A DNA stretch of 40,294 nucleotides from a virus, in IMG/VR virus record IMGVR_UViG_3300017991_000203, positions 1 to 40,294 of that record, one strand, 5' to 3'. Shown one piece after another: positions 2,805 to 32,030 of the stretch (position 1 is its first letter; each line of letters opens with the position of its first letter). Under the pieces are notes generated by a model, which saw only the letters and a program-made list of their open reading frames with translations, did no database searches and was not told where the DNA came from. The position numbers and the translations under genes are program-made.

Positions 2805-3512
2805 TTATTCACAACTAATATCTAACCTATCTTTCTTAACATATCTGTTGCACGTTGGACACAGAATAGATAAATTGTTCAAATCAAAAAGTCGCAATAA
2901 TTGTTCCTCGGACAATGCTGACGAGATAGGAACAACATGATCAATATCATAGCCAACAATATCATAATCGGCTCCGCACATTGGGCATCGATTATTCTGA
3001 TTCCGACGGATATTTTCCAGATGGCTGCAAAGCTCTTCGGAAGTGTATGGTAAATTCTTGCTATAACTAAGTTTCCCCAGCGAAGCAAGTCGTAAAGATG
3101 TCCTTAGTCTATGTTCGTAGTTACCAAGCTTCGTAGAACGTCTTTTCCTGACCCACCGATTTTTCTTTGTTCTATACTCGGCGGTAGAATGATTAGTTCG
3201 CTGTTGTTGTCTTATGCAAGCAAGACATTCGGGTTTGCCACATGGCTTGATATAAAATTCGGATACCCCATGATGCTTGCAAAACATCATTGCTCTTTTG
3301 TCATTGATCATTTGAACAACCACCTTCCTGGGGTGGCCGGGTGTCACATTGGTAGAAAAACCACACCTTTTTGCATTAGCTTTTATAGTAGACTTGTTTC
3401 TATTTAGGATTCTCGCACATTTTGATGGCCCCAATGTCTTATAGTGATTTCTCAAAAACCGTATGTCATCATCAGACAATGTCGGACATCGTCCACGTCG
3501 CTTAGCCACCAA
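2805..3512 (-). CDS. HNH endonuclease with N-terminal helix-turn-helix
   Basis: 235 aa. Residues about 10-55 (LSDDDIRFLRNHYKTLGPSKCARIL...) resemble a helix-turn-helix; the C-terminus has a canonical HNH zinc nuclease: CPMCG, YDIDHVVP, LNNLSILCPTCN. The start is a TTG with GGAG nine bases upstream; a GTG follows directly. It overlaps the ERCC4 nuclease gene by 11 bp and abuts terL. HNH proteins next to terminase can be packaging partners in cos phages or free-standing homing enzymes. The DNA-binding N-terminus and the neighbouring inteins favour homing, but this is not decided by the sequence. Confidence 0.85.
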   Translation of the reverse strand: MVAKRRGRCPTLSDDDIRFLRNHYKTLGPSKCARILNRNKSTIKANAKRCGFSTNVTPGHPRKVVVQMINDKRAMMFCKHHGVSEFYIKPCGKPECLACIRQQQRTNHSTAEYRTKKNRWVRKRRSTKLGNYEHRLRTSLRLASLGKLSYSKNLPYTSEELCSHLENIRRNQNNRCPMCGADYDIVGYDIDHVVPISSALSEEQLLRLFDLNNLSILCPTCNRYVKKDRLDISCE

Positions 3513-7989: not shown

Positions 7990-8043
7990 TTCATCACCCC
8001 AAAAATTATACACAAGCTTTAGTCCGATAAAATCGCCCCTCCA

Positions 8044-9564: not shown

Positions 9565-10267
9565 TTATTCAAGAGAAGACGTAGACAGGTGGTTCGACTA
9601 TAGCTATCTACCATCCCGAAGACTTATCTATGTTGGTTCTCATAACCCCGAAACCGAAGAGGGGGGCGAGTCCGGAACGGACTGTCTGATGTCTGAATTT
9701 TTCGTCAAAGCTATTTGCCATGCGGACAGTTTCTCAAGTAAACCCATCATAGTCCATATGAATAACTTAGGGGGAAGCTGGGAACATGGCATGGCCATGT
9801 ACGATGCAATCAGAGCCTCCAAGTCGCATGTTTACGGTATCTGTTGGGGTCACGCAATGAGTATGGGTTCGATTATAATACAATCGTGTGACTCTAGGAT
9901 CGTAACACCGCATTGCACATTCATGATACATGATGGTTCCGAAAATCTTTACGGGACATGCAAGGCAGTAGAAGAATGGGCCAAGTATGCGACAAAATCT
10001 CGCAAACATATGTATGAGATATATCTCAGCAGAATGAAGGCTGCTAAGCCACGTATGACACTAAAGAAAATAGAAGAGCTATGTTCGCACGACAGTCTTT
10101 TCGATGCAGAACAGGCAGTCGACTTTGGATTGGCCGACTGGATTTTAGAAAGCTTGGACGACCCATACAAGTACTATGCTACCGACACACAAAACGCCAA
10201 GTGGCAGTCTGGTATGAAATTAAGTAGAAATATTGTTCAAATAGAAGAAACAGATGAGGATGAGTAA
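9557..10267 (+). CDS. ClpP-like serine protease (possible prohead protease)
   Basis: 236 aa. ClpP/crotonase-fold peptidase with catalytic Ser102 in GHAMSMGS and His125 in FMIHDGS; the third-residue region HDSLFDAEQAVDFGLAD corresponds to the ClpP DR(D)-AxEAxxYGLID block. In phages such proteins mature the capsid shell or cut scaffold. No portal or major capsid gene lies next to it here, so a non-capsid role cannot be excluded. Start overlaps the zinc protein by 8 bp and has GGAGAGG upstream. Confidence 0.85.
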   Translation: MSNYSREDVDRWFDYSYLPSRRLIYVGSHNPETEEGGESGTDCLMSEFFVKAICHADSFSSKPIIVHMNNLGGSWEHGMAMYDAIRASKSHVYGICWGHAMSMGSIIIQSCDSRIVTPHCTFMIHDGSENLYGTCKAVEEWAKYATKSRKHMYEIYLSRMKAAKPRMTLKKIEELCSHDSLFDAEQAVDFGLADWILESLDDPYKYYATDTQNAKWQSGMKLSRNIVQIEETDEDE

Positions 10268-10848
10268 TGTCGACCGAACTATGGAAAAACGTTAAGGGAT
10301 ACGATGGAACATATGCAATTTCTAGCCTGGGGCGTATCAAGAGGATTCTAGGTAGTGCAAGCACTTACCCCGGAAGAATTTTAAAACCCCAACTGAATAA
10401 ATTCGGATATTTACAAGTAACATTATCCCAAAACGGACGTAGAAAGACATTAAAGCTCCACAGGCTGGTACTTGAATCGTTCGTCGGTAATTGCCCTGAT
10501 GGCATGGAGTGCCTACATGCTGACGGGAACAGACTAAACAACAAATTGACCAATCTGCGATGGGGAACAAAATCGGAGAATGCCCAAAATGCCATACGCC
10601 ATGGGACTTTTTCTAGACTACACAATTGTGGTGCAAAAAATAAGATGTCTAAATTAACCGAAACGAAAGCCCTACAGATATTGCGATTATTACAATCTGG
10701 CAGAGATGGACATGCTGGTAAAAAATGGCTACAAAGAGAAATAGCAGCACTATTTAATGTTGATCAATCGACAATTTCGTATATCGCCACTGGGAAAATA
10801 TGGAAACACGTTAGAAATTCTCACCGAAATCAAGGAGCCAACAAGTGA
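10267..10848 (+). CDS. NUMOD4-HNH homing endonuclease
   Basis: 193 aa. N-terminal NUMOD4 domain (LWKNVKGYDGTYAISSLGRIKR), then the HNH-type core (KLHRLVLESFVG, LHADGNRLNNKLTNLRWGT, SENAQNA), and a C-terminal helix-turn-helix (LQREIAALFNVDQSTISYIATG). This is the architecture of free-standing phage homing endonucleases. It sits between the protease and MazG-like genes, sharing one base with the former's stop and overlapping the latter by 4 bp, so it was inserted without breaking the operon. Confidence 0.92.
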   Translation: MSTELWKNVKGYDGTYAISSLGRIKRILGSASTYPGRILKPQLNKFGYLQVTLSQNGRRKTLKLHRLVLESFVGNCPDGMECLHADGNRLNNKLTNLRWGTKSENAQNAIRHGTFSRLHNCGAKNKMSKLTETKALQILRLLQSGRDGHAGKKWLQREIAALFNVDQSTISYIATGKIWKHVRNSHRNQGANK

Positions 10849-18270: not shown

Positions 18271-18495
18271 CTATTCGCCATCCGGTATGATATCCGGTCC
18301 ATCACCATCCAAGATTATTAGTCGCTGATCCGGATCATCTAGAATGTGTGTGATGCAGCCACCAGCGTGCTTAATCCCATCTATCGTGTGATAGATGCCG
18401 TCTATTGTATCCATATACGACATGAACGCTTCGGCATTCTTCTCCGCATCGACTCCCCTGAAAATGAGACTCACTTCAGCTATTTCTTTTGACAT
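18271..18495 (-). CDS. Unknown small protein
   Basis: 74 aa. Strand-helix-strand pattern (EVSLIFRGVDAEKNAEAFMSYMDTI, CITHILDDPDQRLIILDGD), possibly a small ferredoxin-like fold. It overlaps the HNH gene by 16 bp. No family recognised. Confidence 0.6.
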   Translation of the reverse strand: MSKEIAEVSLIFRGVDAEKNAEAFMSYMDTIDGIYHTIDGIKHAGGCITHILDDPDQRLIILDGDGPDIIPDGE

Positions 18496-19130
18496 TGACT
18501 GGCTCTCTTTTGTCCAACGGGAGTGGTAAGGGCTTCTTCTGTGGGCCAGTTAGCCTCGTTGAGCCTAAAAGATAGTGTGTAGACATTAATGTTCAGTTCT
18601 TCGGCCCAGTCTGTTAAACATTGTGTTCTCCCATCGTGTGTAATTAAGTGGTTATTTCTTTTATTCCTGGCTTGCTCTTGCCTAGTCGCCCACTTGCAAT
18701 TTCCTGGTTCATAATTACCATCATTGTCTATTCTATCAATCGAGTGTCCTTCTGGGCACTCCCCCATATCTTTAAGAAAATTCTCAAATTTTCTCCATCG
18801 TCGACACACCATAATCCCTCGACCGCCATAATGTTTATTGCTTAAGTCGCTACACCTATAAATCATGCAAACCCAGCAATTATATGTTTGGCTAGTAAAC
18901 GCACCACTGGTATGACCATGTTTGGTCGAACCTTCTATAGACCTTTCCTTCTGCAAACAGCCACAACTTTTGGTATGACCGCTTTTGAGATTACAACTAG
19001 ATATTACCTTTTTTGTCCCACAGTCACATCTACACAGCCATCTGGTGTGGCCACCTTTGGCATTATCAGTCCTTGAAACAACGATAAGTCTACCAAACCG
19101 CTGTCCAGTTATATCCACGGGCTTACCCAT
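18480..19130 (-). CDS. HNH/AP2-type homing endonuclease-like protein
   Basis: 216 aa. Zinc-binding N-terminus (WLCRCDCGT, SCGCLQKER) followed by the common phage block HYGGRGIMVCRRWRKFENF, MGECPEGHSIDRIDNDGNY, EPGNCKWATRQEQ, a degenerate HNH-type site. The C-terminus (LTDWAEELNINVYTLSFRL) is an HTH-like recognition element. It has GGAGG upstream and lies between the collagen-like and a small gene, consistent with a mobile insertion. Confidence 0.85.
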   Translation of the reverse strand: MGKPVDITGQRFGRLIVVSRTDNAKGGHTRWLCRCDCGTKKVISSCNLKSGHTKSCGCLQKERSIEGSTKHGHTSGAFTSQTYNCWVCMIYRCSDLSNKHYGGRGIMVCRRWRKFENFLKDMGECPEGHSIDRIDNDGNYEPGNCKWATRQEQARNKRNNHLITHDGRTQCLTDWAEELNINVYTLSFRLNEANWPTEEALTTPVGQKRASQCQKK

Positions 19131-26533: not shown

Positions 26534-27184
26534 TCACTCCCCTCGTGGATCATGTCTCCAGGTAATACCGCGAAGAATATGGCTGATGTTGGAGGGTGTG
26601 ACACCATATATCTCGGCCAATTCGTTAATCGTCAGACCCTGCTTTGACAATTCTCTTATTTTACCAACCTTCGCGTAATTCAGTTTTGCCCCGATAATGT
26701 CGGCACCGTGCAGCCTTGCATCAGCCTGATTTTCTGCCTGTGTTCCCCACACCAAGTTGTCTGGATTTGAGTTTTTCTTGTTCCCATCTAGATGTCTGCA
26801 CTCTAGACCATCTGGCCTTGGTCCGTGGAAAGCAATACAAATGAGCTTGTGTACATGTTGCTTGTTATCCCGGCTCACGGTGATCCTTGGATAACCTTTT
26901 TTATCGTATTGCCACTTAAGACGGCGACCACGTTTGCCCCAGATGTGGCCTTCTGAATCGGCCCTGTAGCCAGGATATCCCGGTATGTCCTTTACCACAA
27001 TGCCAGACAGCGAAAGGTCCCTGGTTGGACGTGGCTTGGAGAAGCGACCTCCTCCGTTGATAATCCTGCTTATAGTGCGAACAGATAAATCATATCTCTT
27101 CGCTAGCTCCTTAACCTGCTCTCCCTTGGTCCAGTGCTGCCTTATCTCTGCGACCTGCCTGTCTGTAACAACTCGGTTCCTCAT
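26534..27184 (-). CDS. HTH-NUMOD4-HNH homing endonuclease, probably leaderless
   Basis: 216 aa. N-terminal recombinase-type HTH (VAEIRQHWTKGEQVKELAKRY), NUMOD4 (VVKDIPGYPGYRADSEGHIW), HNH core (HKLICIAFHGPRP, CRHLDGNKKNSNPDNLVWGT) and a second HTH (GLTINELAEIYGVTPSNISH). Complete free-standing homing endonuclease with a DNA-binding domain at each end. The ATG is five bases after a TATAAC box and has no SD. Confidence 0.9.
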   Translation of the reverse strand: MRNRVVTDRQVAEIRQHWTKGEQVKELAKRYDLSVRTISRIINGGGRFSKPRPTRDLSLSGIVVKDIPGYPGYRADSEGHIWGKRGRRLKWQYDKKGYPRITVSRDNKQHVHKLICIAFHGPRPDGLECRHLDGNKKNSNPDNLVWGTQAENQADARLHGADIIGAKLNYAKVGKIRELSKQGLTINELAEIYGVTPSNISHILRGITWRHDPRGE

Positions 27185-27189
27185 GATAC

Positions 27190-27218
27190 GTTATACGAAG
27201 AAAGGGTGAGGTTGTTCT
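27190..27218 (-). promoter_or_regulatory. Phage promoter, AGAACA-N10-TTCTTCG-TATAAC class
   Basis: AGAACA (27218-27213), ten bases, TTCTTCG, TATAAC (27195-27190), then GTATC and the ATG of the HNH gene. Same geometry as the copies at 8097, 23435 and 26444. The expected start of transcription falls on the start codon. Confidence 0.7.
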
Positions 27219-27499
27219 GTTTTTTTTGAGGGAAAGATGAGGGAAAGGTGTGGGTGATAAATTTATCTTTTTTGTAGGTAGTTTCAAAATTGGTCTGGCT
27301 TAGTGTGAAGGCCCCCGCGTTATCGGACCCCACCCAGTTATCGGACGGGAACAAAAAACCCCGCATCCCCTGTTATAGGACCTTCTCCACCTGAGCAGAT
27401 TATCGGACTACATACTCTTATCGGACCATGAAGATAAGCTTGCCAGACATGGCAAGGGAAACAAGCATGTTATAGGACCTATCTTTTTTCTTTTTGTTC
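27219..27499 (+). promoter_or_regulatory. Divergent control region with first cluster of TTATNGGAC sites
   Basis: No gene on either strand. From 27319 on it holds six exact TTATNGGAC copies (starts 27320, 27338, 27373, 27400, 27418, 27470). Two pairs are 18 bp apart (27320/27338 and 27400/27418). The AT-rich part 27220-27290 has no motif copies. This lies between divergent transcription units and ends at a sigma70-like promoter, a natural place for operator or origin sites. Confidence 0.6.
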
Positions 27500-27528
27500 T
27501 TGCTTTCGACCGATGCGGATTCTATACT
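27500..27528 (+). promoter_or_regulatory. Sigma70-like promoter
   Basis: TTGCTT, 17 bp, TATACT (27523-27528), followed by GGAGGG and the ATG at 27547. Unlike the AGAACA/TATAAC class, it resembles host housekeeping promoters, consistent with early expression of the right-hand genes. Confidence 0.6.
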
Positions 27529-27546
27529 GTATTGGAGGGTAACACT

Positions 27547-27714
27547 ATGGATTATCAGACACTAATCAGCGATGCGGCAAATTGGCTCTTCTCGGACCTT
27601 GACAATGGTATGCTGGTTATCGGGACGATGGTTGTTATCGGGGCCTTGGTTGCTATCGGACGTTCTTTCGGTTGGTGCTCGCATACTCGCAATATCGGAC
27701 GGAGGGTACTCTAA
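27547..27714 (+). CDS. Small membrane protein
   Basis: 55 aa from ATG 27547 with GGAGGG upstream. One membrane segment (MLVIGTMVVIGALVAIG); two V-I-G pairs in it are encoded by TTATCGGG motif copies. Stop overlaps the next ATG (TAATG). Role unknown. Confidence 0.6.
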   Translation: MDYQTLISDAANWLFSDLDNGMLVIGTMVVIGALVAIGRSFGWCSHTRNIGRRVL

Positions 27715-27806
27715 TGCTGACTATCGGACTAATCGGTGCTGGTGCTGTTGTTATCGGGTCTGTTTGGGTTTGGTTTGTTTGGGACGATATTAGCGGACTA
27801 CTGTAG
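27714..27806 (+). CDS. Very small membrane protein
   Basis: 30 aa, MLTIGLIGAGAVVIGSVWVW then FVWDDISGLL. Start overlaps the previous stop (TAATG), so it is translationally coupled. Contains motif variants CTATCGGAC and TTATCGGGT. Role unknown. Confidence 0.58.
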   Translation: MLTIGLIGAGAVVIGSVWVWFVWDDISGLL

Positions 27807-27818
27807 GGAGCGATAACC

Positions 27819-28073
27819 ATGACAACGGCAGAACAAGTTATCAGACGTAAGTGTGACCCGAATGCCGATCCTAACGCTATCGGACCGAGACAGTATTCCA
27901 TACTTATCGGTGGTTCACGCCACTATTCGCCAGAATTCAAGTGCGGCTGGAATGCGTTATTGGTCCCTATCCGTGCAGTATCGGACATTCTTCCAGACGG
28001 TTGTGTGCTGAGCGTATTATCGGGTATTGACGGCAAGTGGTATGATTGGCCGATAACTAAGGGGGGCAAGTAA
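27819..28073 (+). CDS. Unknown protein
   Basis: 84 aa, GGGAG upstream in the string GGAGCGATAACC before the ATG. Contains SILIGGSRHYSPEFKCGWNALL and CVLSVLSGIDGKWYDWP, alpha-beta. No family recognised. Confidence 0.6.
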   Translation: MTTAEQVIRRKCDPNADPNAIGPRQYSILIGGSRHYSPEFKCGWNALLVPIRAVSDILPDGCVLSVLSGIDGKWYDWPITKGGK

Positions 28074-28074
28074 C

Positions 28075-28263
28075 ATGCTAGTTTATTCGGACGTTGAGAT
28101 GGTTGAAGTTACGCTGTATTCTAGGGCGGTTGGCTATATCCGACGAACACGATTGTTGGCCGATGGCTTAGCCGATGCTTTGGACGATTATAGGGTACTA
28201 GGATGGCGTATCGTGCGTGTTGAGCGATTCACGGCCTATAACTACGATGTGCGGGAGGTTTGA
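28075..28263 (+). CDS. Unknown small protein
   Basis: 62 aa, SD AAGGGGGG. VEVTLYSRAVGYIRRTRLLADG, ALDDYRVLGWRIVRVERF: alternating strand and helix. It overlaps no neighbour; the next ORF starts two bases after its stop. Confidence 0.58.
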   Translation: MLVYSDVEMVEVTLYSRAVGYIRRTRLLADGLADALDDYRVLGWRIVRVERFTAYNYDVREV

Positions 28264-28265
28264 TT

Positions 28266-28337
28266 ATGGGACGTGAGATGTGGTTCTGGTTACGGGTCAT
28301 TTGGTGGTTTGGTCTTATAACAATCTGCATGTGGTAA
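28266..28337 (+). CDS. Tiny hydrophobic peptide
   Basis: 23 aa, MGREMWFWLRVIWWFGLITI then CMW. One Trp-rich membrane segment. Its ATG lies inside a TTATGGGAC motif copy (28264-28272). GGGAGG lies ten bases upstream. Coding is plausible but size makes it uncertain. Confidence 0.42.
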   Translation: MGREMWFWLRVIWWFGLITICMW

Positions 28338-28348
28338 GGAGCGATAAC

Positions 28349-28537
28349 ATGGCGCGATATAGGACTACTCAAGCTGAGTTTCAAGCGATACTTGAATCCC
28401 CAGGTATATTATGGGAACATGCGATACTGGAAAAAATTGTATCGAGTGGCAGATTACCGGACCACAGCATGGACCACCTACCATTATCGGACTGTGACAT
28501 CGGAACATTCGAATGGGATTTACCGGACGAAGTATGA
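28349..28537 (+). CDS. Unknown small acidic protein
   Basis: 62 aa from ATG 28349; AAGGAG then CGATAAC before the start. YRTTQAEFQAILESPGILWE and an acidic tail (CDIGTFEWDLPDEV). LSD is encoded by a TTATCGGAC copy. An intrinsic terminator follows 18 bases after the stop. Confidence 0.6.
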   Translation: MARYRTTQAEFQAILESPGILWEHAILEKIVSSGRLPDHSMDHLPLSDCDIGTFEWDLPDEV

Positions 28538-28554
28538 TCGGACCATGAGCAACA

Positions 28555-28582
28555 GGCCCATATTATCGGGCCTTTTTCTTTT
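28555..28582 (+). terminator. Intrinsic terminator with embedded motif copy
   Basis: GGCCC (28555-28559), eight-base loop ATATTATC, GGGCC (28568-28572), then a T-run (TTTTTCTTTT). It ends the 27547-28537 unit. The loop and right arm spell TTATCGGGCC, a variant of the array motif. Confidence 0.75.
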
Positions 28583-28968
28583 GCGCCCAGGATAAATTAT
28601 AGGACCTTGGGCCGTGAGCGATTATCGGGCGTTCCGTGTTTTTGTTTGGTTTGTGCGCATTTTTGTAGGTTATTATCGACCAGTGCAAATAATATCATAC
28701 AGCGCAGCAGGACACCAAAGGGGACATTATAGGACCTCCGAGTTATAGGACGATGCCTCGCGACCTGGGATTTGTTATAGGACTTATGGTGGTGAACGGT
28801 TATGGGACTTTCCTTGTCTTGCTTTGTTATAGGACGTGCCAATAATAACGTAGATAACAATCTATTATCGGGAAGGTCCGTTTTCGTAGGTTATAGGACC
28901 GGGACGTAAATTGCCGATAATATCGTGGCTGACAGGCGCAGAACGGCGAAAATAAACTTGTATAACAT
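28583..28968 (+). promoter_or_regulatory. Non-coding gap dense in TTATAGGAC sites
   Basis: No credible gene. Seven exact motif copies: starts 28597, 28727, 28743, 28775, 28800, 28827 and 28891, mostly the TTATAGGAC form. At 28911-28959 lies a longer element, GCCGATAATATCGTGG...GGCGCAGAACGG, which recurs near 29794. The region precedes a strong sigma70-like promoter. Confidence 0.6.
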
Positions 28969-28969
28969 T

Positions 28970-28997
28970 TTGACTTCCAGGATAACTAGGCTATAGT
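28970..28997 (+). promoter_or_regulatory. Strong sigma70-like promoter
   Basis: TTGACT (28970-28975), 16 bp, TATAGT (28992-28997). Start of transcription would be near 29004, about 45 bases before ATG 29050. It drives the two genes 29050-29608. Confidence 0.68.
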
Positions 28998-29049
28998 TTA
29001 ATGTAGTATAAAGCATTGGATTTTCGGACCACTATTTAGGGGGAGAACT

Positions 29050-29409
29050 ATGGGACGCAATGTTATCGGGCAAACCGGGAAAATGACGTTATCGGAAGAT
29101 GGCGTGCTGTATAATGTATCGAAAAAGCGGACGGTACGTTATTGGTACAAGAAGCACAAAGTTGGTTCTCGGACGTTCTGGTACGCCGAGGTTATTGGAC
29201 CATTCCACAGTCGGCTTTATGGGACGTGTGCTTTTGGGACCACGAAAGCGCGGGCTAAAGTAGCACTGAAGGACGTTCTCGGACGTGAACATGGGTATCT
29301 TGGACATCTGCTGTTATCGGACACGGATACGTCCGATACGGTCGGGACGTTTGACCAAAGGTTATTGGACCAGGCGATCCAGAATGTTCCGATAACGGCC
29401 ACTTTCTAG
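29050..29409 (+). CDS. Unknown protein packed with motif copies
   Basis: 119 aa, GGGGGAG upstream. Basic and beta-rich start (SKKRTVRYWYKKHKVGSRTFWY), helical end. Four exact TTATNGGAC copies and several variants lie in its reading frame as VIGP, LYGT, LSD and LLD, so its coding sequence has been shaped by the motif. No family recognised. Confidence 0.6.
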   Translation: MGRNVIGQTGKMTLSEDGVLYNVSKKRTVRYWYKKHKVGSRTFWYAEVIGPFHSRLYGTCAFGTTKARAKVALKDVLGREHGYLGHLLLSDTDTSDTVGTFDQRLLDQAIQNVPITATF

Positions 29410-29419
29410 GGGTGATAAC

Positions 29420-29608
29420 ATGCCGAAGATACCTATCGGAAGTAAAGTAGAGCTTGATTGTTGGCCGACTGGCGGAAAAGTTATCGGACATCACGATGGA
29501 CATCCGATAATCCAACCTGAGCCGTGTATCTTATCGGACGACGATCCGACGATCAAAAGTTATACGGACGCAATGGGTTTGGTCCGAATACCATTCTACC
29601 AAAGATAG
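29420..29608 (+). CDS. Unknown small protein
   Basis: 62 aa, start preceded by GGGGTGATAAC. IGSKVELDCWPTGGKVIGHHD resembles an SH3-like start; acidic middle (LSDDDPTIKSYTD). Two exact motif copies are used in two different frames. Confidence 0.55.
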   Translation: MPKIPIGSKVELDCWPTGGKVIGHHDGHPIIQPEPCILSDDDPTIKSYTDAMGLVRIPFYQR

Positions 29609-29618
29609 CGGACCAATC

Positions 29619-29659
29619 ATTATGGGACCGGAACATGCGCAATTTCGGTCCTATATTTT
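29619..29659 (+). terminator. Intrinsic terminator built from two opposed motif copies
   Basis: TATGGGACCG ... CGGTCCTATA form the arms, about 15 bases between, followed by TTTTTG. The left arm is a TTATGGGACC copy and the right arm is the reverse complement of a TATAGGACCG copy. It closes the 29050-29608 unit. Confidence 0.62.
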
Positions 29660-30137
29660 TGCGCCGAGATTCGAGTTATGGGACGAAGGGCGGTGCGCGA
29701 TGAGCGTTATAGGACGATTCCGGTTTTGTGTTATTGGACGTTGAGCGGTGGCGATTATGGGACAATTCCGATAGCCAGTTTACCTTGTGTGTATTGGCCG
29801 ATAATATCGTGCTTTACGGCGCAGAAACGCCATTTCTTATCAGAATTAACTTATCAGACTAGATTTTACTCCATTTGGGCCGATAAAAACCCCATTATCG
29901 TGGAAAAGCGAGTTATAGGACCCTGTTATAGGACTAGCATAACCTATATTATAGGATTTTCCGATAAAATCGCGGTTTTGGCCGTATAATAACGTGTTTT
30001 TCTCGGACTAAGCTGTAAACGGGGATATTATAGGGCATTGGAAACCGGACGTGGAAATTATCGGACTAGGACGTTGTTTGCCGATAATATGGCGCGTGGC
30101 GCTACCAAAAATGGGGATTTTTTTTCTATATAACAAA
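29660..30137 (+). promoter_or_regulatory. Non-coding gap with motif cluster, including 24-bp-spaced triplet
   Basis: Exact motif copies start at 29676, 29707, 29731, 29755, 29913, 29926 and 30058; the three at 29707-29763 are each 24 bp apart. The GCCGATAATATCGTG element recurs at 29797 and as GCCGATAATATGG at 30079. GGCG-CAGAAA-CGCC-ATTTCTT (29818-29838) is a weak terminator-like hairpin. I see no convincing gene. Confidence 0.55.
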
Positions 30138-30166
30138 TAGACCATTTGTATAACTAAATCTATAGT
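30138..30166 (+). promoter_or_regulatory. Possible sigma70-like promoter
   Basis: TAGACC, 17 bp, TATAGT (30161-30166), in an AT-rich stretch. The string CTATAGT..TTATGTAG resembles the promoter at 28992. It would give a roughly 180-base leader containing the hairpin GCGGC-TGTCT-GCCGC (30216-30230) before ATG 30355. Confidence 0.42.
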
Positions 30167-30354
30167 ATTATGTAGGATGAAAAACAACCTACAACAAAAT
30201 ACGGACCAAGCCGACGCGGCTGTCTGCCGCCGATAATAAGTGGCGTGTGCAATATACGTCCGAATAGTTCCGTTGATTACTTGTCCGTCTCGTTATGGGA
30301 CGGAGTAGTCTCGGTTACGGGACGGGCTATAACTACCTTGCAAGGGGAATAGTT

Positions 30355-30675: not shown

Positions 30676-32030
30676 TCTCCGCGTGTCTCTCGCATCGCGC
30701 CTGAAATATCGGGCTACATACCGTGATCGGGCGCGTAACGATGGATATTCGGACGTAAAGTCTGAATTGAACCGCTTGGCTAGGTGGCACCTAGTCGTTA
30801 TAGGCACCCAATATAGTGTCAGCGGTTCCCATAACCAATGTAGCGGGGAGTCCGATACGCATCGGGTATTCCCGGACGTGGTTGGTTATTAGTCCGATAG
30901 TCGCCGTAGTAGGGTCTGATAAGCGCAGGATGTGTGTTATCGGGTCTAAACCGGAGTCCCGGTTATCGGTCGAATCCCAGTCATAGTAGCGGCAAAACGC
31001 AGGGTCCGAAATGCGGACCCGGTCTGCGCCGATATGGCGTCGGTGGGATAAGCGGCGAGCCGTCTGCGCGATTCTTTGTATAGTCTGGTGGGTGTCCGGT
31101 TTCAGCGCCGGATCACGGGGCAAGCAAAGGTAGGTCGCGTTGACTATTCAACGGTTCGTCGTGGGAATACGCCGATGTCTGGTGTGGGCTCACTATTTTG
31201 TCGTGGGATAGGCATTCCAAATATCAAGTCTCGGTTAACTTTTCCGCGATTATTTTCTGTCTCAAGGGTCTGGTATTGTTTGCTGAAACAATATAGGGTC
31301 TGAGATTCTGGATTAGCGGACGAATTCCGTTCTTGATTGGATTCGTCGAATTATGGCGCACAACGGGCATTGCGCGCGATAAAACGATGGTACGCTGAAC
31401 GACGCGACACGTCAACCGGTACGAATAAACGGATATTTTCGTCTGGCGAAACCGTCTTGTATCGATTGACGTTAATATAAAGGCTGCAATGAGACCATCC
31501 TGGGAAAAACAGTCAGCCAGACTCGATTGCCAGGGTGTCAGCCAAAAGAAATTAGAGGTTAGGGCCTACGGGCCGGGAAGCCTATGTGGCGCAAGTGGTT
31601 TAAGCTAAAGGGCTTACGTCAGATCAATCACTCGCAGATTGATTACCATCGCCGCTAGGTCGGTAGTCTGGTGGGTTGGCTACCGCTATTTGATTGGCGA
31701 GTCAGGTCAGGACTTGGGTTTAACCCGAACTCCGATAACGCCTGGCGCAGCCATCTTGGGAGTGTGCGATGAACAGCAAAATCGCACGGGTGGGTACCAA
31801 CTTTATTAGTCTGGTATCCGTGGTCAGGGGTGGATGGTAACTCTGGCTATTTTTCAATATTACGCACTCGTGCCACGGGGTCGAGAGATGTCGTGGTGCA
31901 TTCTGGACCAAAGGCGCGCCAAGGGTCGCTAGGGCATTGGTTCACGGCACATAACCGAATAACCTGAATTTGCACTGCATTCCTTTTGTCGTCTGGCAAT
32001 CTAGTTTACCACGTGTGGGAGTTTGTCACT
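30676..32030 (+). ncRNA. Candidate giant structured RNA (about 1.35 kb without genes)
   Basis: No credible gene on either strand, yet many perfect hairpins: CCGAT/ATCGG at 30852; GGGTCCG/CGGACCC at 31002; TCCGG/CCGGA at 31095; TATTGTTT/AAACAATA at 31274; GACGAAT/ATTCGTC at 31319; GGCC-TACG-GGCC (UNCG tetraloop) at 31563; CGGTAG/CTACCG at 31661; GTGCGAT/ATCGCAC at 31764. Base composition is GC-rich. Size, phage setting and tRNA genes on the same arm recall the large ornate phage RNAs (GOLLD, ROOL), but I cannot assign it to either. Ends are set by flanking genes, so the true transcript may be shorter or double. Confidence 0.55.

Follow-up and report, generated by a model that had tools for sequence, protein, structure and literature searches.

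What does a phage do with thirty copies of one nine-base word, all facing the same way within about 3 kb? The question is raised by IMG/VR virus record IMGVR_UViG_3300017991_000203, a fragment of an uncultured phage that was analysed over its whole length of 40,294 bases and is here called the window. Its genes include HNH endonucleases, a head-maturation protease, a nucleotide-sugar epimerase and tRNAs. The word, TTATNGGAC, occurs 32 times in exact form: the stretch 27320-30301 holds 30 copies, every one of them plus-strand, and the remaining two are minus-strand copies at 1864-1872 and 8022-8030; dinucleotide shuffles of the window hold 1.63 copies on average and 5 at most. With up to one mismatch allowed, the plus strand carries 60 sites in 1-kb bins 27-30 (16, 16, 22 and 6) and no more than two in any other bin, and the opposite strand carries 0, 3, 7 and 6 in the same four bins. 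The original prediction, made from the letters of the window, had reported such a one-strand cluster with isolated minus-strand matches elsewhere and with boxes in all three reading frames. Our recount agrees on each point, and this first observation is right and stronger than originally claimed.

The array is a property of a phage group and not of one contig. The relatives of the window (contigs of 70-181 kb) each carry a single cluster of 3-5 kb with 17-60 strand-biased sites and are near background elsewhere, and in this group the boxes face in the direction of the open reading frames (ORFs). Ten related clusters taken together hold 283 copies of the consensus on the strand of the cluster and 17 on the opposite one, and no one-base variant exceeds 41 copies. 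Within three families of small ORFs conserved among the relatives we counted 50 exact copies of TTATNGGAC against 6.4 expected, with 5 on the other strand; the null was a synonymous-codon shuffle of 2000 rounds, in which the maximum was 14. A codon-aware null had been named beforehand as a check on the prediction that selection acts on the oriented word itself, and the excess bears that prediction out. Box positions differ among the relatives: individual sites turn over, and what persists is their density and orientation; the lack of conservation in relatives that would have told against the prediction is not what we found.

The arrangement of the boxes points to a protein that reads DNA. Same-strand distances below 13 bp and of 20-22 bp are avoided, and those of about 16, 25 and 34 bp are favoured, which suggests protein contacts on DNA. 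A simple 10.5-bp periodicity was rejected because the spacing spectrum has two broad peaks, at 9.25 and 11.25, and our claim is therefore limited to non-random spacing with peaks at 16, 25 and 34 bp. The flanks of 1074 boxes show no complementarity of the kind expected for RNA-hairpin pairing, and no Rfam family was found in the array region, the tRNAs lying elsewhere in the window. The sharp word, the spacing and the unpaired flanks together favour a DNA-binding protein over an RNA element.

Where the array lies is the second part of the answer. Detrended cumulative GC skew reaches its minimum near the 5' end of the cluster in all ten contigs of the phage family, at distances of 134-994 bp that are below 200 bp in six of them; in the window the two positions compared are 27181 and 27319. 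The skew maximum lies roughly opposite the minimum in the five contigs of 165-180 kb (one contig in the skew analysis was read to 180,000 of its 181,360 bases). About 90% of the ORFs point away from the skew-minimum point, where divergent transcription starts. The leading-strand third-codon skew is +0.119 in co-directional ORFs (n=666) and +0.114 in ORFs opposed to the inferred fork (n=68, some of which may be spurious). Being the same in both ORF orientations, the skew looks driven by replication and not by transcription. Together with the placement in ten of ten contigs, this independence of gene direction leads us to conclude that the array marks the phage origin; it looks like an array at a replication origin. 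Of the functions offered by the original prediction, the replication site set gains from the skew minimum at the cluster 5' end, and the dispersed phage repressor site loses ground because the boxes keep to a single locus.

The word is also used by other phages. In a search of viral contigs, three closely spaced copies of TTATNGGAC turned up in 107 stretches; the phages in question have G+C contents of 32-67%, and many of these loci are irregular, non-repeat clusters of boxes. A reversed-motif control in viral contigs also gave many matches, among those listed, with spacings like those of coding repeats (many of them multiples of 9). The count of 107 is for this reason not used as proof by itself, and the evidence rests instead on mixed spacing, orientation, the null models and placement at the origin. 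In other phage groups the boxes form compact intergenic clusters with both strands mixed. A RepA-like ATPase lies near the arrays at seven loci of one other phage group; for the window's phage group we identified no RepA-like or other initiator next to the repeats. Among cultured phages we found no relatives of the array region or of its two conserved proteins and no near match to positions 1-25000 of the window, and the literature titles and abstracts covered do not mention TTATNGGAC as an element of phages or of DnaA.

Scans of cellular genomes led to the Planctomycetota, where the word is kept in the class Phycisphaerae. Upstream of parA (within 300 bp) it is present in 25 of 30 Phycisphaerae orthologs, with 26 sites antiparallel to the gene and one parallel; shuffles of these regions gave a mean of 0.26 and a maximum of 3. 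It is also found in the flbD/flgDE intergenic region of all 11 closest FlbD orthologs. There it is usually half of a 19-bp palindrome, TTATNGGAC-N-GTCCNATAA, with between one and three additional half-sites whose direction does not vary, and two genomes have a similar palindromic form in front of a xerD-like gene. Of 248 genomes, 27 have near-palindromes with at most one mismatch; the reversed control gives about 10. The word is thus a conserved regulatory site in Phycisphaerae, which points to a binder encoded by the host. A host link of another kind comes from a Phycisphaerales contig with four boxes (a prophage), whose terminase is 51-53% identical to that of another array-phage group and so ties the array phages of that other group to Phycisphaerae. 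For the window's own phage group, comparison by gene and by DNA similarity gave only one protein whose C-terminal part is weakly matched in three of 150 genomes, and short matches that fall mostly in a sugar-epimerase gene.

Other cellular matches to the pattern were mostly tandem or coding repeats and were set aside except for the Planctomycetota loci. One of them, in a Marinomonas contig (L338, 4548-5093), consists of irregular GTTTTATAGGACACCC repeats that include the word but seem to be a repeat family with no relation to it. Most of the loci examined (L411-L421 and other flbD loci) have a sigma-54 type promoter (TGGCAY-N5-TTGC) between flgD and the word, a possible motility circuit of Phycisphaerae. 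In five Phycisphaerae genomes (L394, L395, L396, L397 and L398), two or three TTATCGGAC sites precede the gene for a conserved coiled-coil protein (MDTKE...).

Which host protein might read the word? The replication initiator DnaA, which is also a transcription factor and when bound to a box can block RNA polymerase, recognizes the box TTATNCACA. Our word has the same 5' TTATN and carries 3' GGAC in place of CACA. In the ten pooled clusters TTATNCACA is found 0 and 1 times against 283 for TTATNGGAC, so that a canonical DnaA-box match fails and the 5' half alone agrees. Two DnaA proteins score above the family cut-off in 28 of the 29 Phycisphaerae genomes examined; G173 has one, and the second match in G156 is weak. 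DnaA-1 has the usual helix GGRDH[TS]TV..H. DnaA-2, where its helix is readable, has [KR]NH[AS]T, and leucine or serine replaces the later histidine in most genomes. The changes fall at the equivalents of D433, T435 and H439, which are among the residues listed as contacting the box (PMC7561715). The DnaA helix-turn-helix reads the 3' TnCACA and Arg399 the 5' TTA (PMC5742627), and two genomes that have no parA box (G119 and G202) have a different DnaA-2 helix. DnaA-2 is the leading candidate for the binder, as judged from these sequence comparisons. A phage-encoded DnaA was rejected as a candidate: 39 array-phage records contain no Bac_DnaA_C domain.

The reading that we favour, and to which we give about an even chance, is that the array is an origin-proximal set of oriented boxes on the right side of a bidirectional phage origin, where a host protein, most likely DnaA-2, would bind. 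It is likely that the phage makes use of a bacterial protein of the cell cycle or of replication initiation. That the phage group infects Phycisphaerae-type Planctomycetota, and the act of initiation itself, we infer. The host protein would bind each box as an oriented unit, with a changed DnaA-2 helix-turn-helix reading GGAC where normal DnaA reads CACA, and the same-facing boxes would seed a head-to-tail assembly of DnaA-2 that opens the origin. Alternatively, the array might draw the initiator away from the host chromosome and deplete it, in the manner of datA in E. coli. In either case occupancy of the array may also hinder transcription through the region. The essential boxes of datA all face one direction (PMC5742627), and the title of Schaefer and Messer 1989, as cited in PMC10950094, mentions active orientation. 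A broader proposal, possible but short of an even chance, is that DnaA-2 with its own box TTATNGGAC forms a parallel initiator or cell-cycle circuit over parA and flagellar genes, and that phage groups with no relation to one another, several in number, use long oriented arrays of this box as the material of their origins.

Several points weigh against binding by DnaA-2. One genome (G072) has the usual DnaA-2 helix without an exact parA box, another (G151) lacks the parA box and has the flbD boxes, and a third (G173) has parA boxes with a single DnaA found. The dnaA-2 promoter itself has canonical TTWTNCACA boxes and no TTATNGGAC. The flbD site, a 9-1-9 inverted palindrome, has a form seen more often with dimeric regulators than with DnaA. 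At the level of the phage, a spread of boxes over 3 kb through genes is unlike known compact origins, and we infer the host of the window's phage group from the shared word alone.

The TTWTNCACA boxes upstream of dnaA-2 are present in most loci (L507-L539 and L540-L566), often as direct repeats spaced by 67 bp or as inverted ones spaced by 23-24 bp.

The array may be seen as a variant of oriented initiator-box arrays whose word is common to phage origins and Planctomycete cell-cycle genes. Like the DnaA boxes of oriC and datA, its boxes have nine bases, are asymmetric with N at position 5, share the identical TTATN 5' half, cluster in one direction at preferred distances and lie at a replication origin. 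They differ in the 3' half (GGAC, not CACA), in number and extent (17-60 of them, running through coding genes for 3-5 kb) and in a binder that is a candidate drawn from sequence. Iterons of plasmids and phages also place multiple same-facing initiator sites at an origin. They usually stand in tight tandem with the initiator encoded by the same replicon, whereas the spacing of the array is irregular and we found no phage protein that could serve as initiator in every one of the array groups. The spacing of 16, 25 and 34 bp also differs from the gap of 2-3 bp in E. coli double boxes (PMC11317965). As far as the description in PMC10516654 goes, the SPBRE sites of SPbeta bound by MrpR (YopR) are likewise a repeated phage operator set; this likeness is one of description only.

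The strongest competitor to DnaA-2, though in our judgement unlikely, is another host transcription factor: a dimeric cell-cycle or motility regulator, such as an FlbD-like sigma-54 activator or a regulator above it, with TTATNGGAC as half-site and the phage array as a decoy or a link to the host cell cycle. The 19-bp palindrome upstream of flbD, with looser forms at parA and at the xerD-like gene, is what such a dimer might read, and a partial right half at an offset of 10-11 is seen in about 5% of the phage sites. The FlbD orthologs with the operator also share a helix, TLYAKVKQ, where many without it have TLHAKLKR, but helix and operator track the same phylogeny and the correlation is confounded. 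Moreover, the phage and parA sites are mostly single oriented 9-mers, poor targets for a strict dimer; sigma-54 promoters, present at host flgD, were not found near the phage arrays; and a decoy requires neither orientation nor a location at the origin.

Improbable, in our view, is a phage-encoded monomeric repressor that would block elongation from oriented sites beside the origin, as at the stoperators of L5 and other Cluster A phages, which are bound by a Gp71-type repressor. Those sites too are asymmetric, number 20-30 and are oriented with transcription, as the boxes of the window's phage group are with its ORFs, and the array region begins at a point of divergent transcription. Stoperators are, however, 13-14 bp long, genome-wide and bound by the phage repressor (PMC6550527), whereas the boxes are restricted to one origin locus of 3-5 kb and share their word with host genomes, which in Phycisphaerae have conserved it in front of the chromosomal genes parA and flbD. 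Other phage groups mix orientations in intergenic clusters, and we found no helix-turn-helix repressor family common to the array phage groups in the genomes compared. The repressor reading, for which the original prediction had named L5 as an analogue, is the less supported one.

It is very improbable that the word acts in RNA, as a sponge or site for a regulator of the CsrA kind. Co-orientation with transcription in the window's phage group and a GGA core would suit such a role; the absence of hairpin context, the non-random 16/25/34-bp spacing, the antiparallel placement of 26 of 27 host parA sites, the mixed orientations within single intergenic regions of other phages and the tie to the GC-skew minimum would not. 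Nor does the word present the ANGGA core in a hairpin loop that CsrA/RsmA-type sites have, the base before N being T and not A. A compositional or coding by-product without function has a negligible chance: although some similar matches in cellular genomes and in the reversed control are plain coding or tandem repeats, the synonymous-codon null is exceeded about eightfold and placement is kept at the skew minimum and at host parA.

The array would give a large family of uncultured phages a named, testable origin, and the word is a sequence handle by which such phages may be linked to Planctomycete hosts. In the Planctomycetota, a phylum with unusual cell division and little-known cell-cycle control, it would be a conserved regulatory word. 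If DnaA-2 reads it, these bacteria would have two DnaA proteins and two box codes, a clean case of divergence in initiator specificity, and the phages would be exploiting the second DnaA.

The boxes of the window and their surroundings are listed below.

Table 1. Features of the array region, in coordinates of the window.
Feature	Position	Strand	Remarks
Skew-minimum point and gap to first box	27181..27319		Cumulative GC-skew minimum at 27181; predicted origin point
T/G/A-rich tract	about 27220-27279		In gap before first box; could be an unwinding element
Six TTATNGGAC boxes in 159 bp: 27320, 27338, 27373, 27400, 27418, 27470	27320..27478	+	Candidate origin core; adjoins skew minimum
Two boxes (28264, 28484) among small ORFs	28264..28492	+	
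Intergenic block of seven boxes: 28597, 28727, 28743, 28775, 28800, 28827, 28891	28597..28899	+	
GCCGATAATATCG element containing inverted, altered half-site TTATCGGC	28913..28925	+	Again at 29797-29809; as GCCGATAATA at 30080-30089
ORF F2, conserved, small, 119 amino acids	29050..29409	+	Four boxes in three frames: 29192, 29217, 29314, 29362
Two boxes (29481, 29531) in small ORF	29481..29539	+	
Block of five boxes: 29620, 29676, 29707, 29731, 29755	29620..29763	+	
Three boxes: 29913, 29926, 30058	29913..30066	+	
Final box of cluster	30293..30301	+	
ORF F1, conserved, small, 105 amino acids	30358..30675	+	Ends cluster in relatives; almost box-free
HNH endonuclease	26534..27184	-	Last leftward gene before divergence point; neighbour, outside array

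F2 has relatives at 12 other loci. F1 is also found at other loci (including L013, L028 and L104), and the protein searched had no match in Pfam or NCBIfam. The 1.3 kb or so that follow F1 (30676-31960) hold no convincing gene, and similar sequence follows F1 in L013; this stretch, which has no Rfam match, could be a long structured RNA. The GCCGATAATATCG-type element recurs 3' of box blocks and is followed by an apparent conserved promoter, CTATAGT.TAATGTAG; the element itself resembles the right half of the palindromes at host flbD. The window has four HNH endonuclease genes (2805-3512, 10267-10848, 18480-19130 and 26534-27184), one of them directly at the origin-side end of the array.

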